Shown here piece after piece: positions 9,468 through 64,000 of a DNA stretch of 64,000 bases. Within the stretch, counting starts at the first letter, position 1, and each line of letters opens with the position of its first letter. The DNA is from Rhodocyclaceae bacterium (GTDB taxonomy: Bacteria > Pseudomonadota > Gammaproteobacteria > Burkholderiales > Rhodocyclaceae): NCBI GenBank assembly GCA_004379165.1, contig NKXK01000034.1:1-64000 (forward strand). The letters are read 5' to 3'. The position numbers and the translations under genes are program-made. The notes beneath the pieces were generated by a model. The model was given only the letters and a program-made list of their open reading frames with translations. It was not told the origin of the DNA and made no database searches.

Positions 9468-9503
9468 CGTCCCCTCCCGCGGGCCGGCCGACACGCCAGC
9501 AGA

Positions 9504-12050
9504 TTACCCGGCGGCGTCGGCGGTGGATTTTTTGGTCGTCGCTTTCTTCTTCGCCGGCGCCTTTTTCTCGAATTCGAAGCCGACCTTGCCGTCCTGAGCG
9601 ACCAGATAGGCCGAGAACTTGCGCCGGGTACGGTTCGACACGAATTCCTTGAGCAGATCGGTCTTGCCGTCGGCCAGCAGTTTCTTCATCTGCACGCTGT
9701 CGATGGGCTGTTGCAGAATGATCTTGCCGGAGCGGAAGTCGCAGCTCTTGTCGGCGCCCACGGACTTTTCGCAGACGTAGGAGGTGCCGTGCTCATAGAC
9801 ATTGCTGGCGCACTTCGGGCATTTGCCTAGGCTTTCCTGGCCGGAGAAATCGACCGGTTCGGCGTTGGCCTCGTCCGCACGGTCCTGACCGAAATCGAAT
9901 TCCGGCTGCAGGTCGTCGTTGAGACGGATACTGGCGGCAAAGCTGCGACCCATCTTGTTGCGGAATCCGGTCAGCGGGCCGACCTGGCGTTCGGTGAGCA
10001 GGGTTTCGATCTCGGCCGGTTCGTACTGGCGGCCGGCGACGATTTTCCACAGCGCGTAATCGCAGGCGCCGCACTGGAATTTCTTGTAGGTTTCGCGGAT
10101 CTGGCCGCCACACTTCGGGCACGGGGCTGCCAGCACGCCGAAATCGCCGGGAATGGTGTCGGCCTCATATTGCTTGGCGCGTTCGACCATGTGGCGGGTC
10201 ATTTCGGCGATTTCGCGCATGAATTCGGCGCGGGTGAACTCGCCCTTTTCTATGCGGCCGAGTTTCCATTCCCAATCGCCGGTCAATTCGGGCTGCGTCA
10301 GTTCGGTGACGCCGAGGCCATTGAGCAGGGTCATCAGCGTGAAGGCCTTGGCCGTGGGGATCAACTCGCGGCCTTCGCGGTGCATGTATTGCTCGCCGAT
10401 CAGGTTTTCGATGATCTGTGCCCGCGTCGCTGGTGTGCCGAGCCCGCGGCCGGCCATCGCCGCCTTGAGTTCCTCGTCGTCGACCATCTTGCCGGCGCCC
10501 TCCATGGCGGAAAGCAGGGTGGCTTCCGAATAGCGCGGTGGTGGCTTGGTTTCGTTGGCCTTGACCGTGACTTCTTCGGCCAGCACCTTTTCATCCTTGG
10601 CGACAGCGACCAGATTGCCTTCGTCGCCGGCCTGGCCTTCCTTGCCATGCACGGCCATCCAGCCGGGACTGACCAGCACCTTGCCCTCTGTCTTGAAGGG
10701 ATGGCCTTCGACGCGGGTGATGCGGGTGGTGACCAGGAACTCGGCGGCCGGGAAGAAAACGGAGAGGAAGCGGCGGACGACGAAGTCGTAGAGCTTCTGT
10801 TCCATTTCGTTCAGGTTTTTGGGCCCCTGCGGCGTTGGGATGATCGCGAAGTGGTCGCTGATCTTGGCGTTATTGAAAATGCGCTTGTTCGGCAGCACCC
10901 AGTTGCGGGCGAGAATCTGGTGTGCAAAGGGTGAATAACGGGCAAGCAGGACCTCGTCGTGTCCCTTGCCAGCACCTTCGCCGGTCAGCACCGTCAGCGT
11001 TTCCTTGACCGTGGCGACGTAATCTTCGGGCAGGCAGCGAGAGTCGGTACGCGGGTAGGTGAGAACCTTGTGCTTTTCGTACAAGGCTTGCGCCAGCGAC
11101 AATGTCGTCTTTGCAGAAAATCCAAAGCGAGCGTTCGCTTCGCGCTGAAGGCTTGTCAAATCGAAGAGTAGCGGGGAGAGACGGGTTTCCGGTTTTGCCT
11201 CTTCGGTCACAGTACCTAGCTTGCCGAGCGTCGCGGCACGCAGGGCATCGGCCTTTCTCTGTTCCCAGATGCGGTCGGCACGGGCGTGTTCGTCGCGGGT
11301 CTGGTCGTTACCATCCTTGCCTTTAAAACCTTCGTCAAACCATTTGCCGGTGTAGGTGCCGGCGCGGGTCTTGAATTCGGCCTCGACCTCCCAGTACGAA
11401 CGGGCCTTGAAGTCTCGGATCTTGCGCTCACGCTCGACGACGATGGCCAGCGTCGGTGTCTGCACACGACCGACGGTGGTCAGGTGGAAACCGCCGGTCT
11501 TCGAGTTGAAGGCGGTCATCGCCCGCGTGCCGTTGATGCCAACCAGCCAGTCGGATTCGGAACGGCAGGTCGCGGCATCGGCCAGACCCTGCATTTCATG
11601 GCCCTGGCGCAAATGCGCAAAGCCATCACGGATGGCCCCGGGAGTCATCGACTGCAGCCACAGGCGCTGCACCGGCTTGCCGGACTTGGCTGCCTGGGCG
11701 ATGTAATTGAAGATCAACTCCCCTTCGCGCCCCGCGTCACAGGCATTGACCAGACCGACGACGTCCTTGCGCTTGATCAGCTTGTTCAGCAGCTTGAGTC
11801 GGGATTCGGTCTTTTCGATCGGCTTCAGCGCAAAGTGCGGCGGAATGACCGGCAAATGGGCAAAAGACCATTTGCCGCGTTTGACTTCGAATTCTTCCGG
11901 GCAGGCCAGTTCGAGCAGATGGCCGACAGCTGACGACAACACATAGTGTTCGCTCTCGAAGTAGTCGTCGTGCTTGGTGAACCCGCCGAGTGCCTTGGCG
12001 ATGTCGCTGGCTACGGAGGGTTTTTCGGCGATGATCAGCTTTTTTGTCAT
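9504..12050 (-). CDS. topB: DNA topoisomerase III
   Basis: 848 residues, type IA topoisomerase. The TOPRIM domain has AEKPS (about 8-12) and DAGREGELIF (105-114). The active-site tyrosine is Tyr332 in LTYPRTDSRCLP. Two C-terminal Cys4 zinc ribbons follow (starting CPKCGG and CPKCAS), then a Lys/Ala-rich basic tail (KKAPAKKKATTKKS) that probably binds DNA. TopB decatenates replication and recombination intermediates in the cytoplasm. It lies downstream of dprA on the same strand with a 78-base gap holding nothing recognisable. Confidence 0.92.
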   Translation of the reverse strand: MTKKLIIAEKPSVASDIAKALGGFTKHDDYFESEHYVLSSAVGHLLELACPEEFEVKRGKWSFAHLPVIPPHFALKPIEKTESRLKLLNKLIKRKDVVGLVNACDAGREGELIFNYIAQAAKSGKPVQRLWLQSMTPGAIRDGFAHLRQGHEMQGLADAATCRSESDWLVGINGTRAMTAFNSKTGGFHLTTVGRVQTPTLAIVVERERKIRDFKARSYWEVEAEFKTRAGTYTGKWFDEGFKGKDGNDQTRDEHARADRIWEQRKADALRAATLGKLGTVTEEAKPETRLSPLLFDLTSLQREANARFGFSAKTTLSLAQALYEKHKVLTYPRTDSRCLPEDYVATVKETLTVLTGEGAGKGHDEVLLARYSPFAHQILARNWVLPNKRIFNNAKISDHFAIIPTPQGPKNLNEMEQKLYDFVVRRFLSVFFPAAEFLVTTRITRVEGHPFKTEGKVLVSPGWMAVHGKEGQAGDEGNLVAVAKDEKVLAEEVTVKANETKPPPRYSEATLLSAMEGAGKMVDDEELKAAMAGRGLGTPATRAQIIENLIGEQYMHREGRELIPTAKAFTLMTLLNGLGVTELTQPELTGDWEWKLGRIEKGEFTRAEFMREIAEMTRHMVERAKQYEADTIPGDFGVLAAPCPKCGGQIRETYKKFQCGACDYALWKIVAGRQYEPAEIETLLTERQVGPLTGFRNKMGRSFAASIRLNDDLQPEFDFGQDRADEANAEPVDFSGQESLGKCPKCASNVYEHGTSYVCEKSVGADKSCDFRSGKIILQQPIDSVQMKKLLADGKTDLLKEFVSNRTRRKFSAYLVAQDGKVGFEFEKKAPAKKKATTKKSTADAAG

Positions 12051-59574: not shown

Positions 59575-59648
59575 GCGGGCGTCGTATAATGGTAATACCT
59601 CAGCTTCCCAAGCTGATGCCGAGGGTTCGATTCCCTTCGCCCGCTCCA
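59575..59648 (+). tRNA. tRNA-Gly (anticodon CCC)
   Basis: 74 bases with encoded CCA. The acceptor arm GCGGGCG pairs with CGCCCGC, the anticodon stem TCAGC/GCTGA carries a loop TTCCCAA with anticodon CCC, and the T arm reads GAGGG TTCGATT CCCTT. The D-arm region is GTATAATGGTAATAC, as in bacterial tRNA-Gly(CCC). A Tn7-like transposon end begins less than 50 bases downstream. Confidence 0.96.
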
Positions 59649-59676
59649 TCAGAATTTACTCAGGTCATTGATCTGA

Positions 59677-59750
59677 TGTGCCGTTAAGCATAAAGTGTCC
59701 GCCCGGACAGCTTATGCTTTAATTCCCGATAGGACACATTTTGCTTTATC
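59677..59750. repeat. Transposon end with three GGACA-TGCTTTA elements
   Basis: One inverted copy, TTAAGCATAAAGTGTCC (59684-59700), faces GGACAGCTTATGCTTTAA (59705-59722), and a direct copy GGACACATTTTGCTTTA starts at 59732, 27 bases later. The common core is GGACA-N3/4-ATGCTTTA. Such repeats next to a terminal TGT are the pattern of transposase (TnsB/TniA) binding sites in Tn7-like ends. The outermost TGT could be 59677 or 59696 (TGTCCGCCCGGACAG). The paired arms also form a hairpin just 3' of the tRNA. Confidence 0.65.
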
Positions 59751-59804
59751 GGAAATTTATGGCTGTCGTCAGACGGTTTTTCCGGGCTCCCAAGCACCAG
59801 ACGT

Positions 59805-59829
59805 AAAAAAACCGGCCATGTAGCCGGTT
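59805..59829 (-). terminator. Rho-independent terminator of the transposition operon
   Basis: Read on the minus strand: AACCGGC / GCCGGTT stem, six-base loop TACATG, then TTTTTTT. It lies 26 bases downstream of the TniQ stop. The 332-base stretch 59523-59854 otherwise holds the tRNA, its promoter and the transposon end. Confidence 0.88.
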
Positions 59830-59854
59830 CTTTGTGTGCTCCGAAATCGTTCGG

Positions 59855-61192
59855 TTATTTTGCAGCTTCAGACTCGAAATCTGGCCTCATCAGGTGACTT
59901 TGTACGTCCTTGAGATTCAGGAGGAGATTGCTCAAGGGGGCGAGAATTGGAGCTGGCACCCGTGCGATGACCTCACGTAGGGTGACAGACTTCCCCTCTG
60001 CCCAAATATCAATGCAAGCCTGCTCGAGATGTGGCCATGCATTGACGACATGTTCATCCTGGCGCCGGCGTAGATATTCCTTCCAGCGCTCGCCAAGTTG
60101 TCGAGTGAGCATATTCGCGCGCAGATAAAGCAGTCTGGGGTCGATATTTAACCGCCTCCCGGCTTCGCGCACGGTGATTGGCGTCGGCAACACAAGAAAT
60201 GCCTGGAGTTGGTTTTCAATTTCTGCCCAGTTTCGCTCACGCTTTACCGTGCGAGTTCGTGGTTTGGGCTGGGGCAGGTTCAGAATTAGCTGAGGCTCAA
60301 TTTGCGGGCACACCCACGTCGATAAATCTCCGCTCAAAAGCTGTGTCAGGCTGGCTCCACTGTGAGCTGCAATCTTTAGGCTGGCCTTCAGGGTTGGTGT
60401 GCCATCACCCTTCAACCAGTTGTGGACAGTGCTTTTGGCGACGCCAATACGTCGAGCGAAGAGAGCACTTTGCCCGTTGTCCATCTCCTCGATGATTTGC
60501 GAGATTGCATTGATGAGGTTGTCGCGCGTTGGTGTGCTCGCCAAAGTTTGCTGAGCATGAACCAATTCACCGATTTGCCGTGCAGCCCATCGTGCGGCAG
60601 GGTCGATTGAAGCCGTAGCTGGCATTTCCCCCTCTTTCCCAAGGAACTCTCCACAATGAGTGCACCAGCCGGGAACTACATAGGCAGCGGTATGGCGAAT
60701 ATTATCTTTACCGCAATGAGGGCAATGTGTCTCGAGCGAGCAAGCGTGTCTCGAACAAACGAAAACCTCGGCGGACTCCCAAACCAGGCGGAAATATGGA
60801 GTCCGGCCTTTTGCAAGGTCTTCGGCAAAGCAGGAAGGACAGAATTGGCCTCGCGTGACGATGGAAAGGCCACTCCGGGAAATGACGTTTTGCCATGACA
60901 GGAAGGTTAGCTTGTCCAGGTTCGGGACAGCGGTGAGCTCCGACAGTGCGGCCGACCAGGTTTCAGCCGACTCGCAAGTGCTAGCCAATCGCCGTTGATG
61001 CCAGTCGAATTGATGGCTGACATCGTGCTCGATACGTTGTGCAATCGAGCGAGAAAGCGCCAAGGTGGATACCGAGTGGGATACTGCCAGCCGACAGAAG
61101 TAGCTGGGTAGGCTTTCAACATCGCTGGTGCCTTCGCCCAAAGGTTGAAGGGCATGCAGCTCGGAGCGTGGGTTGTTGAGCACGGAATTCAT
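59855..61192 (-). CDS. tniQ: TniQ-family target-selection protein with central HTH
   Basis: 445 residues. The TniQ N-terminus (LPSYFCRLAVSHSVSTL) is followed by Cys-rich zinc clusters: CPSC (about 118), CSRHACSLETHCPHC and WCTHC (about 178). Residues about 250-300 are an XRE-like helix-turn-helix (FARRIGVAKSTVHNWLKG). A TnsD-like C-terminal half follows with EAGRRLNIDPRLLYLRANML. TniQ/TnsD proteins choose the target and recruit TnsC. The stop is just before a terminator; the start overlaps the AAA+ gene by 4 bases. Longer than Tn5053 TniQ, near TnsD in size. Confidence 0.85.
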   Translation of the reverse strand: MNSVLNNPRSELHALQPLGEGTSDVESLPSYFCRLAVSHSVSTLALSRSIAQRIEHDVSHQFDWHQRRLASTCESAETWSAALSELTAVPNLDKLTFLSWQNVISRSGLSIVTRGQFCPSCFAEDLAKGRTPYFRLVWESAEVFVCSRHACSLETHCPHCGKDNIRHTAAYVVPGWCTHCGEFLGKEGEMPATASIDPAARWAARQIGELVHAQQTLASTPTRDNLINAISQIIEEMDNGQSALFARRIGVAKSTVHNWLKGDGTPTLKASLKIAAHSGASLTQLLSGDLSTWVCPQIEPQLILNLPQPKPRTRTVKRERNWAEIENQLQAFLVLPTPITVREAGRRLNIDPRLLYLRANMLTRQLGERWKEYLRRRQDEHVVNAWPHLEQACIDIWAEGKSVTLREVIARVPAPILAPLSNLLLNLKDVQSHLMRPDFESEAAK

Positions 61193-62229
61193 GCGGCCTC
61201 CCGGTTACGGTGCGGCTTGGCCGTCTTGATGGGTGGCAGATTCCGGGTCAAGCTCGGATTGATAGCGGCCTCACCCTCGAGAATTTCCTCAAGGATTCGA
61301 GTTCTCTGCGCATCGGTCAGCAGGGCGCGCTCCAATGCTGCAACCGTCCATCGCCCATCGGCTTCTGCAAACCTGGCGGCGCGCGTGAGTACGCTGCTCA
61401 AGGTGCCGACGCAACCCAGCGTGTTCTCGTGGAGCGCCTGGGCATATTGAACCAGCTGGTCGCCCCACAAATGCGGGAGTACCGACTGAAACTTTTGCAC
61501 GCAGGCGGTGAATGCCAATACATCTTCGGGACGGTCCTGGCGGTAACGCTCGCAGTGCACAACGTGAATGCGCCGTGCCAGTTGCCCAGAGAGTGAAACC
61601 AACTGGTAAAGGTCATACGAGCCCACCATAACTATCTGGGAACACCCCTTGTTGGCCAGCGACTTCAGGGTGTCGAGCTGGATTTCGAGTCGGCTACGCC
61701 GCGTTTGACGAATGATGTGCGCTGCCTCATCGATGACAACAAAGCGCGTATCACGCTCCTTCAGGCAGCGCTCTACCGCGGTCCGCAGGCCAGCTAGTCC
61801 ACCAGGGCTGATTCCGCGAGGACGGACCATTTTCCCTGTGGTTGGGTCAATCCCATATGCAACCTTGGGGGCGCTCAAGTCTTCCCCCAGTTCGGCAAGT
61901 GCTTGGGTATAAAACAGGCGCCAAGAGAAATCGTCCTCACCCGATGACGGGGCTTCGACATAGACAGCAGGAATCAGCCCCGCATCCGTGTTCATCTCGG
62001 GGGTGGCGCCGTCCACGGCTTGCTCGACCATGTAGCGGGCCAATGTGGTTTTGCCTGCACCGGTAGGGCCAATCACGAGCAGGATACTGTCCTGGCTGCC
62101 CGGGTAAATCAGGGTGTTGAGCTCATTAATGACCTGCTTGATGCGGGTGTGTTTGATGCGCAGGTTCAGCAGGGATTCAGCTGAGGCGGGAACCGGCGTC
62201 AAGGCAGGTTGAGAAGGTTTGTGAATCAT
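61189..62229 (-). CDS. TniB/TnsC-like AAA+ transposition regulator
   Basis: 346 residues. Walker A is GPTGAGKTT (54-62), Walker B RFVVIDEAAHI (about 168), and sensor I lies in IVMVGSYDLYQLV. TnsC/TniB proteins polymerise on target DNA with ATP and activate the DDE transposase at a site chosen by TniQ. The start follows the transposase stop by 8 bases, and the end overlaps tniQ by 4, so all three genes are one operon. Confidence 0.88.
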   Translation of the reverse strand: MIHKPSQPALTPVPASAESLLNLRIKHTRIKQVINELNTLIYPGSQDSILLVIGPTGAGKTTLARYMVEQAVDGATPEMNTDAGLIPAVYVEAPSSGEDDFSWRLFYTQALAELGEDLSAPKVAYGIDPTTGKMVRPRGISPGGLAGLRTAVERCLKERDTRFVVIDEAAHIIRQTRRSRLEIQLDTLKSLANKGCSQIVMVGSYDLYQLVSLSGQLARRIHVVHCERYRQDRPEDVLAFTACVQKFQSVLPHLWGDQLVQYAQALHENTLGCVGTLSSVLTRAARFAEADGRWTVAALERALLTDAQRTRILEEILEGEAAINPSLTRNLPPIKTAKPHRNREAA

Positions 62230-62237
62230 AGGTCACC

Positions 62238-64000
62238 TTAAAAAGTGTCAAAGTCAGGAAGGGTTTGCGGTGCTGTCGCCTCAGGCAGCGAACCGCAGGA
62301 AGGGATGGAAGGTGATGACCTGTCTTCCGCCATGGAAGGGGCGGTATTCGATGTTTCCTTGGTGAGGCTGAATTTTTTCAGGGGAGCAACGGGGTTGATG
62401 CTGCCCACTTGCAATGTGTTGTAGAGCGATTTGTTTTCTTGCTGGCGTTCGAGTGCGGCGGCCAACGCCCCCTCGGGGGTGAACACCTGCATGAATTCCC
62501 GCAGACGCTGGCTGGCGCGCTCATCGTCGCCGGCGGTACCACTACGGCGGGTGTATTCCTCAGTCAGTGCTCGCCGTTCCAGTTCGGTCAGTTGGCCCAG
62601 GCCGAGTAGATTGCGGCAGGTCGCATGGAGCCAGCGGTCCTTGTAGCGGACGTATACCGATGAGGCATCCCACGGGTCATAGCGGACGGGCAGACTTTGG
62701 CCGGCGAGGCGAGGGTCGCGGAACTCCGGGTGCCAGTACAACTGGTCATTGACCTTGACCCCGCGTTGGCGGTTGACGAGGCGAACTCCACCGCGGTCGA
62801 CAGGCGGGCAGGTGGCAATCAGGAAATCCTGGTTGAAGAGAATCTGCCGTTGCGGCCGGGCGCCGCTTTCTTTCAAGCCACGCCGAAAAGCTTCTCGGGG
62901 GCTGAAATCCAGAGCTGGATGGCGCTCGTCGTCGTAATACTCGGTCGCCCAATATTCGAGACCAAAATACATCGCTTCCAGCGTCCACTCCGCAAAGTTC
63001 ACCGGCAGATGCTTGCCGGTCACCATGCGCACGTTCTTGGTGGCTTTCGTATTGCCGGACAAGTTGTGGACGTATTCGCTGTGCGCCCGCCCGAACATGC
63101 GTTCGAGAACTGCGCCGTGCCGCGGCTGGCCGGCCGGCCGAAAACGCAGATGCACCCCCATCACCTGGAGAAAGGTCTCAAACGCCGACGACATGAAATC
63201 ACGGCCGTTATCGACCACGATGAATTCGGGCAGCCGCTCGAAGCGGCGAACCATGTCGCGTATCACCATCATCACCGAGTGATAGGAGGGTGGGTCGAAA
63301 GTCAAATACATCGCAACGATGCGGCGCGACCAAGCATCCACGGCCAGAGAGAGCCAGGGGCGCCCCAATGGTTTGCCTGTACGACTTGAAACCAACTCGA
63401 TGTCGAGCTGGGTATGGTCGATATGTACATACTGGAACGGGCGGCTACCATGGACAGGGGTGTCGACGTACAGCACATCCACAAACTCACTCATTTGATA
63501 AGCCATGCGCTTGCCATGACGAACACGCAGGTCGTGGGCAGTTTCTTCGGCCTTGATGCGGGCGATGAGGGTCGGGTAGGACGGAGCCTTGATACCGGCT
63601 TCGTCACATGCCGCCTTGAGTATTCTGTAGCACGCCTTGTAGTTAATGGCTTCATGGCTACGCCAGTGAGTCTCGATGACGCTTTGAAGAATTTCCTCCT
63701 GCTGTTCTGTCAGTCGTGCTGTGCGATTGCCCCGGGCATCGGTATGCGGCACCAAGGCCAGCACCTCATGGCCACCATTAAGCAATACAGCGTTCTGGCG
63801 TGCCAGCCAGCGTCGCACCGTACGGTCGCAAACAATGGCTGGGGTGCAATCCGATTGCAGTATGGCCCGGCGCTGCAACGCAATGTCGAGTTGTGCCTGG
63901 TCATAGCGGGCCAGGTCCAGCTTGGTCCTACCAGTCTCAGTCACCGGCACGATGCGCTTGTGCCTGAGTGCATCGGCCAGCCATTCGCGGGGCAGTGTTA
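62238..64000 (-). CDS. TnsB/TniA-like DDE transposase (5' end off the window)
   Basis: 587 residues visible. The reading frame stays open to the right edge (TLPREWLADALRHKRIVP before the first GTG at 63950), so the true start lies further right. An N-terminal HTH region is followed by the rve/integrase core with Asp178 (HIDHTQLD), Asp247 (VVDNGRDF) and Glu283 (AVLERMFG), numbered from 63950: a D-x68-D-x35-E spacing. A Mu-type C-terminal beta-barrel domain follows (about 380-470). It cuts and joins transposon ends bound through the terminal repeats. Confidence 0.88.
   Translation of the reverse strand, partial: TLPREWLADALRHKRIVPVTETGRTKLDLARYDQAQLDIALQRRAILQSDCTPAIVCDRTVRRWLARQNAVLLNGGHEVLALVPHTDARGNRTARLTEQQEEILQSVIETHWRSHEAINYKACYRILKAACDEAGIKAPSYPTLIARIKAEETAHDLRVRHGKRMAYQMSEFVDVLYVDTPVHGSRPFQYVHIDHTQLDIELVSSRTGKPLGRPWLSLAVDAWSRRIVAMYLTFDPPSYHSVMMVIRDMVRRFERLPEFIVVDNGRDFMSSAFETFLQVMGVHLRFRPAGQPRHGAVLERMFGRAHSEYVHNLSGNTKATKNVRMVTGKHLPVNFAEWTLEAMYFGLEYWATEYYDDERHPALDFSPREAFRRGLKESGARPQRQILFNQDFLIATCPPVDRGGVRLVNRQRGVKVNDQLYWHPEFRDPRLAGQSLPVRYDPWDASSVYVRYKDRWLHATCRNLLGLGQLTELERRALTEEYTRRSGTAGDDERASQRLREFMQVFTPEGALAAALERQQENKSLYNTLQVGSINPVAPLKKFSLTKETSNTAPSMAEDRSSPSIPSCGSLPEATAPQTLPDFDTF

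Follow-up and report, generated by a model that had tools for sequence, protein, structure and literature searches.

The 64,000-nucleotide stretch of Rhodocyclaceae DNA analyzed here (the window; C5:1-64000 in a genome of 44 contigs, with contig C5 extending 12.8 kb beyond it) ends with a tRNA-Gly(CCC) gene and three genes, tniQ, tnsC and tnsAB, that are read toward it (Table 1). This region very probably belongs to a Tn7-like transposon of the lineage with fused TnsA and TnsB and forms its target-proximal end. No clustered regularly interspaced short palindromic repeats (CRISPR) system was seen in the element, whose TniQ would act as the target selector TnsD.

Table 1. Features at the tRNA-Gly(CCC) locus and just inside the right end of three copies of the element (window positions unless a contig or locus is named).
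Feature	Position	Strand	Evidence
tRNA-Gly(CCC), attachment gene, intact, CCA encoded	59575..59648	+	ARAGORN and sequence
Spacer of 28 bp, from tRNA 3' end to element	59649..59676	.	Sequence
Target-site duplication TCTGA, last 5 bp of the spacer	59672-59676	.	Second TCTGA after right end on C44
Target-proximal element end, starting TGTGCCGTTAAGCATAA	59677..59800	.	Sequence and comparison with other genomes
Hairpin between element end and tniQ, then minus-strand T run	59810..59829	.	Sequence read directly
tniQ, TnsD-type selector, 445 aa, TniQ domain and helix-turn-helix	59855..61192	-	Pfam; PmcCAST TnsD match
tnsC/tniB, AAA+ regulator, 346 aa	61189..62229	-	Pfam; PmcCAST TnsC match
tnsAB, TnsA-TnsB fusion, 901 aa	62238..64000, on to C5:64943	-	One open frame; Pfam; alignment
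Bax inhibitor-1 family protein	L071:8857-9531, L061:12697-13371, L063:17569-18243		Pfam (first two)

A first-pass annotation of the window had recognized a D-D-35-E transposase of the TnsB/TniA type, a TniB/TnsC AAA+ protein and a TniQ/TnsD-type selector in one operon reading toward the tRNA gene. Pfam matches to all three proteins (TniQ, 1e-15; TniB, 6.5e-18; rve, 6.7e-10, for an rve/Mu-C transposase) and the minus-strand orientation of all three genes bear this out. TnsC carries the motifs GPTGAGKT at residue 54 and VVIDEA at residue 164. The N-terminus of the transposase lies beyond the window, and its TnsB part comprises a DDE transposase with a Mu-type C domain. The tnsA gene that the annotation had proposed to look for is present as the N-terminal part of the fusion, where a TnsA-like domain was matched by Pfam at 9.8e-5 (23.3 bits), just below the curated cutoff of 26.5. 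Residues E64, D107, E120 and K122, together with D509, D578 and E614, were conserved in 30-31 of 31 TnsAB sequences, the D-35-E spacing of D578 and E614 being exact; we take the first four to be catalytic from E. coli TnsA and the last three from the D-35-E pattern. The fusion is retained among relatives, with about 860 residues or more of TnsAB aligning in single frames in 27 of them besides the own sequence, and the alignment with TnsAB of PmcCAST (Tn7744), a type I-B2 CRISPR-associated transposon (CAST), spans residues 4-848.

The annotation had placed the element beside the tRNA gene from position 59677 on, and this proved to be its exact edge because the same edge (TGTGCCGTTAAGC...) recurs behind tRNA-Gly(CCC) with a different flank in G103, a genome of the same genus (locus L032). 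The distance to the tRNA gene is near-constant (28 bp here, 29 bp in G103) although the two spacers are unrelated in sequence. The further statement that the operon ends less than 50 bases from the tRNA gene holds for the element end and not for the last gene, whose stop codon lies at 206 bp. Repeated TTATGCTTTA and GGACA-type motifs in the terminal 59677..59800 segment recur at the other end of the element and represent putative TnsB sites, and the hairpin with T run between this segment and tniQ is a probable terminator of the tniQ transcript.

The second terminal repeat that the annotation had called for was found on another contig of the same genome, C44 (last base 106493), with the right end of a sibling genome, G172, as query; an earlier search for the right junction with a short pattern had given two matches at 3 mismatches compared with five in the control. 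The ends have the TGT...ACA form, and the element is flanked by a perfect 5-bp duplication (TCTGA/TCTGA). Directly past the right end lies the hairpin that follows the tRNA gene in element-free genomes (the tRNA terminator), the insertion point being between tRNA-Gly(CCC) and its terminator. In G172, the edge lies 28 bp past the tRNA gene and the inverted end 28.9 kb on, giving a complete copy of 28,904 bp with a perfect duplication (ATCTG/ATCTG), while the duplication of a further copy, in G129, matches at 4 of 5 bases. When joined, the flanks can be aligned to loci L024, L025, L028 and L030, where the site is uninterrupted and thus empty. Because the analysis found a second end and a duplication, together with an intact copy in the sibling and unoccupied sites in relatives, neither ground on which the annotation would have given up its reading, a missing second end or the presence of these genes as normal chromosome in relatives, applies.

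Comparison of the flanks covered 16 of the 19 loci fetched from relatives, the remaining 3 having the tRNA gene on the opposite strand; L032 alone showed the TGTGCCGTTAAGC... edge directly behind the tRNA gene and L014 (G129) had another element there. A scripted search for right ends and duplications in 43 oriented sequences worked for G172 and G129 (also as L090) only, most stretches being too short. Wherever both ends of a copy are known (own, G172 and G129), the tns genes stand against one of them. A genomic island inserted at the tRNA gene by a tyrosine integrase, with the Tn7-like genes as mere passengers, has next to no probability: tRNA genes are classic integrase sites and tRNA-Gly fragments are repeated downstream in some relatives, but the position of the tns genes, the intact tRNA gene with the junction 28 bp away and the TGT...ACA ends all speak against such an island, which the 5-bp target duplications already disfavor.

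On contig C3 of G129 (L062-L063), a second Tn7-like element lies about 25 bp behind the same tRNA-Gly gene (L062:2352-2425) and reaches approximately L063:11546. It encodes a distant TniQ (about 27-28% identical), has edges of the form TGAGAC...GTCTCA and sits between the tRNA gene and the copy of the first element, whose tnsAB is truncated, so that two lineages occupy one site.

The sequenced cargo of the host element comprises a type I restriction-modification system, an Mrr-type endonuclease, an AbiU2 HEPN protein and a DUF6988 protein that matches the PADLOC candidate PDC-S52, besides IS66, another rve-type insertion sequence and proteins without match. The G172 copy carries another type I system, a PDC-S52 protein, an AbiD-type protein and JetABCD (Wadjet), as well as a TOTE-type primase-helicase, a TrfA-like protein and a WYL regulator. 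Judged by these similarities, much of the nameable cargo is anti-phage defense. The cargo is thus rich in defense genes, in keeping with the defense islands that the annotation had named for such elements, whereas the CRISPR-guided modules named alongside them did not appear; the complete G172 element and the sequenced parts of the host element held no CRISPR-like array, and matches of the G172 element to the tRNA region did not exceed 12 nt. A protein of 224 aa from the Bax inhibitor-1 family (PF01027; 6e-48 in L071 and 4.6e-48 in L061) is encoded just inside the right end in three copies.

These findings bear on whether the element could be a CAST that homes by a spacer against the tRNA region, with its Cas module and array in the unsequenced middle. 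There is a gap in the host element between C5 and C44, the fused TnsAB and TniQ are closest among solved structures to those of PmcCAST, and PADLOC tags PrimPol and WYL models in the sibling cargo as CRISPR-associated. We nevertheless regard a CAST as very unlikely, given the arrayless sibling; moreover, none of 15 sibling cargo open reading frames (at least 100 aa) matched a Cascade subunit in PADLOC, Pfam assigns the sibling PrimPol protein to the TOTE type (4e-102), its weak Cas3 matches reflecting helicase similarity, and a single full-length TnsD is enough for homing in known relatives (PMC10293859). The whole G172 genome gave one TniQ-domain match, i.e., no pair of TniQ and TnsD.

Divergent from tnsAB lies a gene encoding a DUF6471 protein (PF20075, 5.8e-26; C5:65050-65382, equal to L012:6050-6382). 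Of 30 loci with full-length tnsAB, 24 have a divergent DUF6471 gene next to it; none was found in L091, L104, L112, L120, L124 (less than 500 bp searchable) and L138. By eye, the protein looks like a small DNA-binding regulator. It had no match in PADLOC, and a full-text search for DUF6471 found no paper in the library searched.

The host genome as a whole gave two TniQ-domain matches, of which the second belongs to a distinct Tn7-like set, tnsA-B-C-tniQ, located on contig C37 (L152:672-6647 onward). This set has tnsA-, tnsB- and tnsC-like genes and a TniQ of 691 aa, followed by methylase- and helicase-like genes that resemble DISARM-type cargo by eye, and no tRNA gene was found in its first 16 kb.

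Searches for relatives found TniQ proteins at least 86% identical in 5 of 76 genomes of the genus (own, G172, G103, G129 and a damaged copy in G136), matches at E 1e-30 or better in 17 of 395 genomes of the family, and matches at 1e-40 in 5 of 399 genomes of an order sample and 1 of 369 of a class sample, the own genome being counted in all four tallies. Among named genomes, 53 loci were found, many of them betaproteobacterial (Dechloromonas, Herminiimonas, Trinickia, Thiobacillus, Chromobacterium and others) and the more distant ones cyanobacterial with a few others. Plasmids yielded 17 records, including one proteobacterial record (Caballeronia) in which neither a tRNA gene nor a recognizable end was found near the genes.

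Further analysis of 48 closer loci, after removal of duplicates, showed an RNA gene 26-31 bp behind the element end in 36: the gene for transfer-messenger RNA (tmRNA) in 11, tRNA-Ala(CGC) in 11, tRNA-Ser(UGA) in 5, and tRNA-Gly(CCC), a tRNA with CAU anticodon and tRNA-Val(CAC) in 3 each, one of the Val cases being cyanobacterial. A random position would lie at such a distance about once in 10,000, assuming around 60 RNA genes per 3 Mb. The pattern was present in 26 of 33 loci in the close family of named loci (L088-L118, L125, L138) and in 36 of 67 when all distinct loci examined, including distant ones, were counted. The 48 loci do not include L074, L083, L085 and L086, nor 14 distant loci from the named set (L126-L137, L139, L140), and none of these matched acceptably (a weak match in L128 was dropped; L083 and L086 have a tRNA-Ser gene nearby and no recognized end), and the counts also leave out the distant genus-level TniQ matches L039-L056. 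Two of the four matches from an order-level search were new cases, L150 (Ala) and L151 (Ser), both at 29 bp. Nearly all targets share a T-arm core of the GTTCGA type and an encoded CCA. Together with the match of TniQ to the tRNA-homing TnsD of PmcCAST, these data support the earlier statement that some such elements recognize tRNA genes through TniQ; many relatives are inserted at a fixed distance behind small-RNA genes, probably because one element protein recognizes those genes.

Other observations were made at these loci. C occupies the first anticodon position in 4 of the 5 betaproteobacterial kinds of tRNA target (CCC, CGC, CAC and CAU). At L100:1490-1515, a pair of facing element ends is separated by only about 4 bases (CACA-CAAG-TGTG); either the insertion is in tandem or the assembly has captured a circular form. 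The spacer before tRNA-Ser in L092 (approximately 9520-9549) repeats the last 14 bp of the element end, as if it were the footprint of an earlier insertion. In L103, the end lies 29 bp from an apparent 3' fragment of a tRNA gene only (9478-9530); this locus was not adopted as a map of the minimal 3' target, since an integrase insertion explains the fragment equally well.

In a tree of 41 TniQ proteins (L099, L123 and L146 dropped beforehand; L090 labeled Gly by inference), the six target labels required 5 changes, the minimum possible, compared with a shuffled mean of 19.0. The labels cluster on the tree of 32 TnsAB proteins too (L090, L094, L106, L146 and short frames dropped), where they required 6 changes against a shuffled mean of 15.7. 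This clustering, and the T-arm core and CCA common to nearly all targets, could indicate that TnsC/TnsAB, or some feature general to tRNA-gene ends, determines the target, with TniQ as a bridge only. We consider this improbable, however, because TniQ clades hold to one isoacceptor across host families (all 11 Ala cases that show the pattern are CGC; two further, distant cyanobacterial ones are GGC) and because L107, which combines a Val-type transposase with an Ala-type TniQ, is sited at tRNA-Ala.

The two trees were compared by approximately unbiased (AU) tests on 25 shared taxa (L099, L103, L104, L112, L119, L120, L124 and incomplete ones left out), whose p values are indicative because the test groups were picked after the first trees had been seen. 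TniQ joins Gly and Ser users (97/96), a clade rejected by TnsAB (AU p 0.001), while the joining of Gly users with the tmRNA users L141/L142 is rejected by TniQ (p 0.0003) and not by TnsAB (p 0.38). TnsAB likewise rejects an all-Ala clade (p 0.002) and places L107 with Val users at 100/100; on the TniQ side, support for a single Ala group is only 87/70 and a grouping of L107 with Val is not rejected (AU p 0.17), so that the L107 case is of limited weight. The own proteins are 74% (TnsAB) and 48% (TniQ) identical to those of L141, and 65% and 61% identical to those of L092. The two trees thus conflict, and selector and transposase have been reassorted. That the insertion site follows TniQ is the natural reading, which rests mainly on the known function of TnsD.

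The TniQ profile aligns with PmcCAST TnsD along almost the full length (E 8.4e-67), and the TnsD chain of PmcCAST was also the best fold match (E 8.7e-24) of a TniQ structure predicted from 51 sequences (predicted local distance difference test, pLDDT, 86; predicted template modeling score 0.65), which replaced a first prediction from 14 sequences (pLDDT 63). PmcCAST TnsD homes to a tRNA gene (PMC11406308) and is reported to bend its att DNA with an arginine inserted into a CC/GG step (PMC12585508), and the TnsAB, TnsC and TnsD proteins of CyCAST (Tn7745, type I-D) were found experimentally to direct insertion about 30-33 nt downstream of a tRNA-Leu gene (PMC10293859). By analogy, TniQ would recognize the tRNA gene at the DNA level, binding its 3' part, and recruit TnsC. 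TnsC in turn would set the constant downstream distance at which the ends held by TnsAB are joined, so that the tRNA gene stays intact. The relatives would use the same machinery, with TniQ re-specified for other tRNA genes and for the tmRNA gene.

Several results weigh against this reading. The sequenced parts of the host element total about 24.9 kb, its middle being absent from the assembly, and the fold match to PmcCAST TnsD has a TM-score of 0.60 and a root-mean-square deviation of 11.2, so that the domain placement of TniQ either differs or is poorly predicted. The target pattern was missing from 12 of the 48 closer loci (L090, L099, L100, L103, L104, L112, L115, L119 and L121-L124), or from 31 of 67 when all distinct loci are counted. 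L090 has another element between the tRNA gene and the end, L123 and L124 have a tRNA-Ala(GGC) gene nearby and ends that miss the motif used. When 7 loci in which ARAGORN had no hit were scanned with Rfam, the one match was to a Betaproteobacteria-1 RNA in L103, far from the end; a permissive scan of L103 found no match. The other two matches from the order-level search were a repeat of L101 and a locus cut by the contig end (L148). Moreover, the trees alone single out TniQ weakly, with 6 changes for TnsAB compared with 5 for TniQ, and the tmRNA users form no single TniQ clade.

The wider proposal, for which the chances appear about even, is that these elements form a CRISPR-free, mainly betaproteobacterial Tn7-like lineage that homes generally to tRNA and tmRNA genes, that its single TniQ, with six RNA genes as targets, has been re-specified at least 5 times and has been exchanged between transposases by reassortment, and that the DUF6471 protein is an unrecognized fourth core component, as a regulator or co-selector. 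A literature search for tmRNA or ssrA with Tn7-like, TniQ or TnsD found no Tn7-family element at tmRNA, with Hsieh and Peters 2022 and Saito et al. 2021 outside its coverage; in excerpts, PMC10121019 places transposons, of a kind not stated, at an E. coli tmRNA hotspot, and PMC12452197 has ssrA only as a quantitative PCR reference. The tmRNA gene may therefore be a previously unreported target of the Tn7 family and, if so, would represent a new type of attachment site. Homologous selectors at different RNA genes, with the same transposase scaffold and near-constant spacing, would provide a natural series for the study of how TnsD-type proteins read DNA, suggest a route to protein-guided insertion beside tRNA and tmRNA genes without their disruption, and mark predictable places for finding defense islands.

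Compared with known systems, the element has the TnsA-type endonuclease, TnsB with Mu-type C domain, TnsC, TniQ/TnsD, paired ends and 5-bp duplication of Tn7-like elements. With Tn7 itself (TnsABCDE, glmS site), it shares TnsA, TnsB, TnsC and a TnsD-type selector, and both insert outside a conserved gene at a constant spacing from it. Tn7 also makes a 5-bp target duplication. The element described here, however, has TnsA fused to TnsB and an RNA gene as its target; a TnsE search of the host and sibling genomes gave no match, the control being likewise silent. Tn5053/Tn402 (TniABQ) shares the DDE transposase, the AAA+ protein TniB and TniQ, by their Pfam names, and is not known to have TnsA. 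It targets plasmid resolution sites (PMC11406308), in contrast to the TnsA domain and RNA-gene targets found here. CyCAST shares TnsAB, TnsC and TnsD-type insertion behind a tRNA gene but targets tRNA-Leu, compared with tRNA-Gly(CCC) at 28-29 bp and no CRISPR system seen here.

PmcCAST shares the fused TnsAB (E 2.2e-139), TnsC (E 2.6e-42) and a full-length TnsD, and differs in having both TniQ and TnsD where a single TniQ is present here; in addition, the elements described here show no Cascade or CRISPR array, have mostly betaproteobacterial hosts and carry the DUF6471 gene beside tnsAB. Neither the Cascade and array nor the dual TniQ and TnsD of type I-B2 and I-D CASTs were found in G172, whereas the fused TnsA-TnsB, the TniQ of TnsD type and the insertion point some 30 bp behind a tRNA gene are those of the TnsAB-fused, tRNA-homing lineage. 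Both CAST types arose in this subfamily, whose TnsD proteins use different tRNA genes (PMC11406308). The closest solved relatives are those of PmcCAST, and the element is hence of a known kind, related to the lineage that produced two types of CAST but apparently free of CRISPR.

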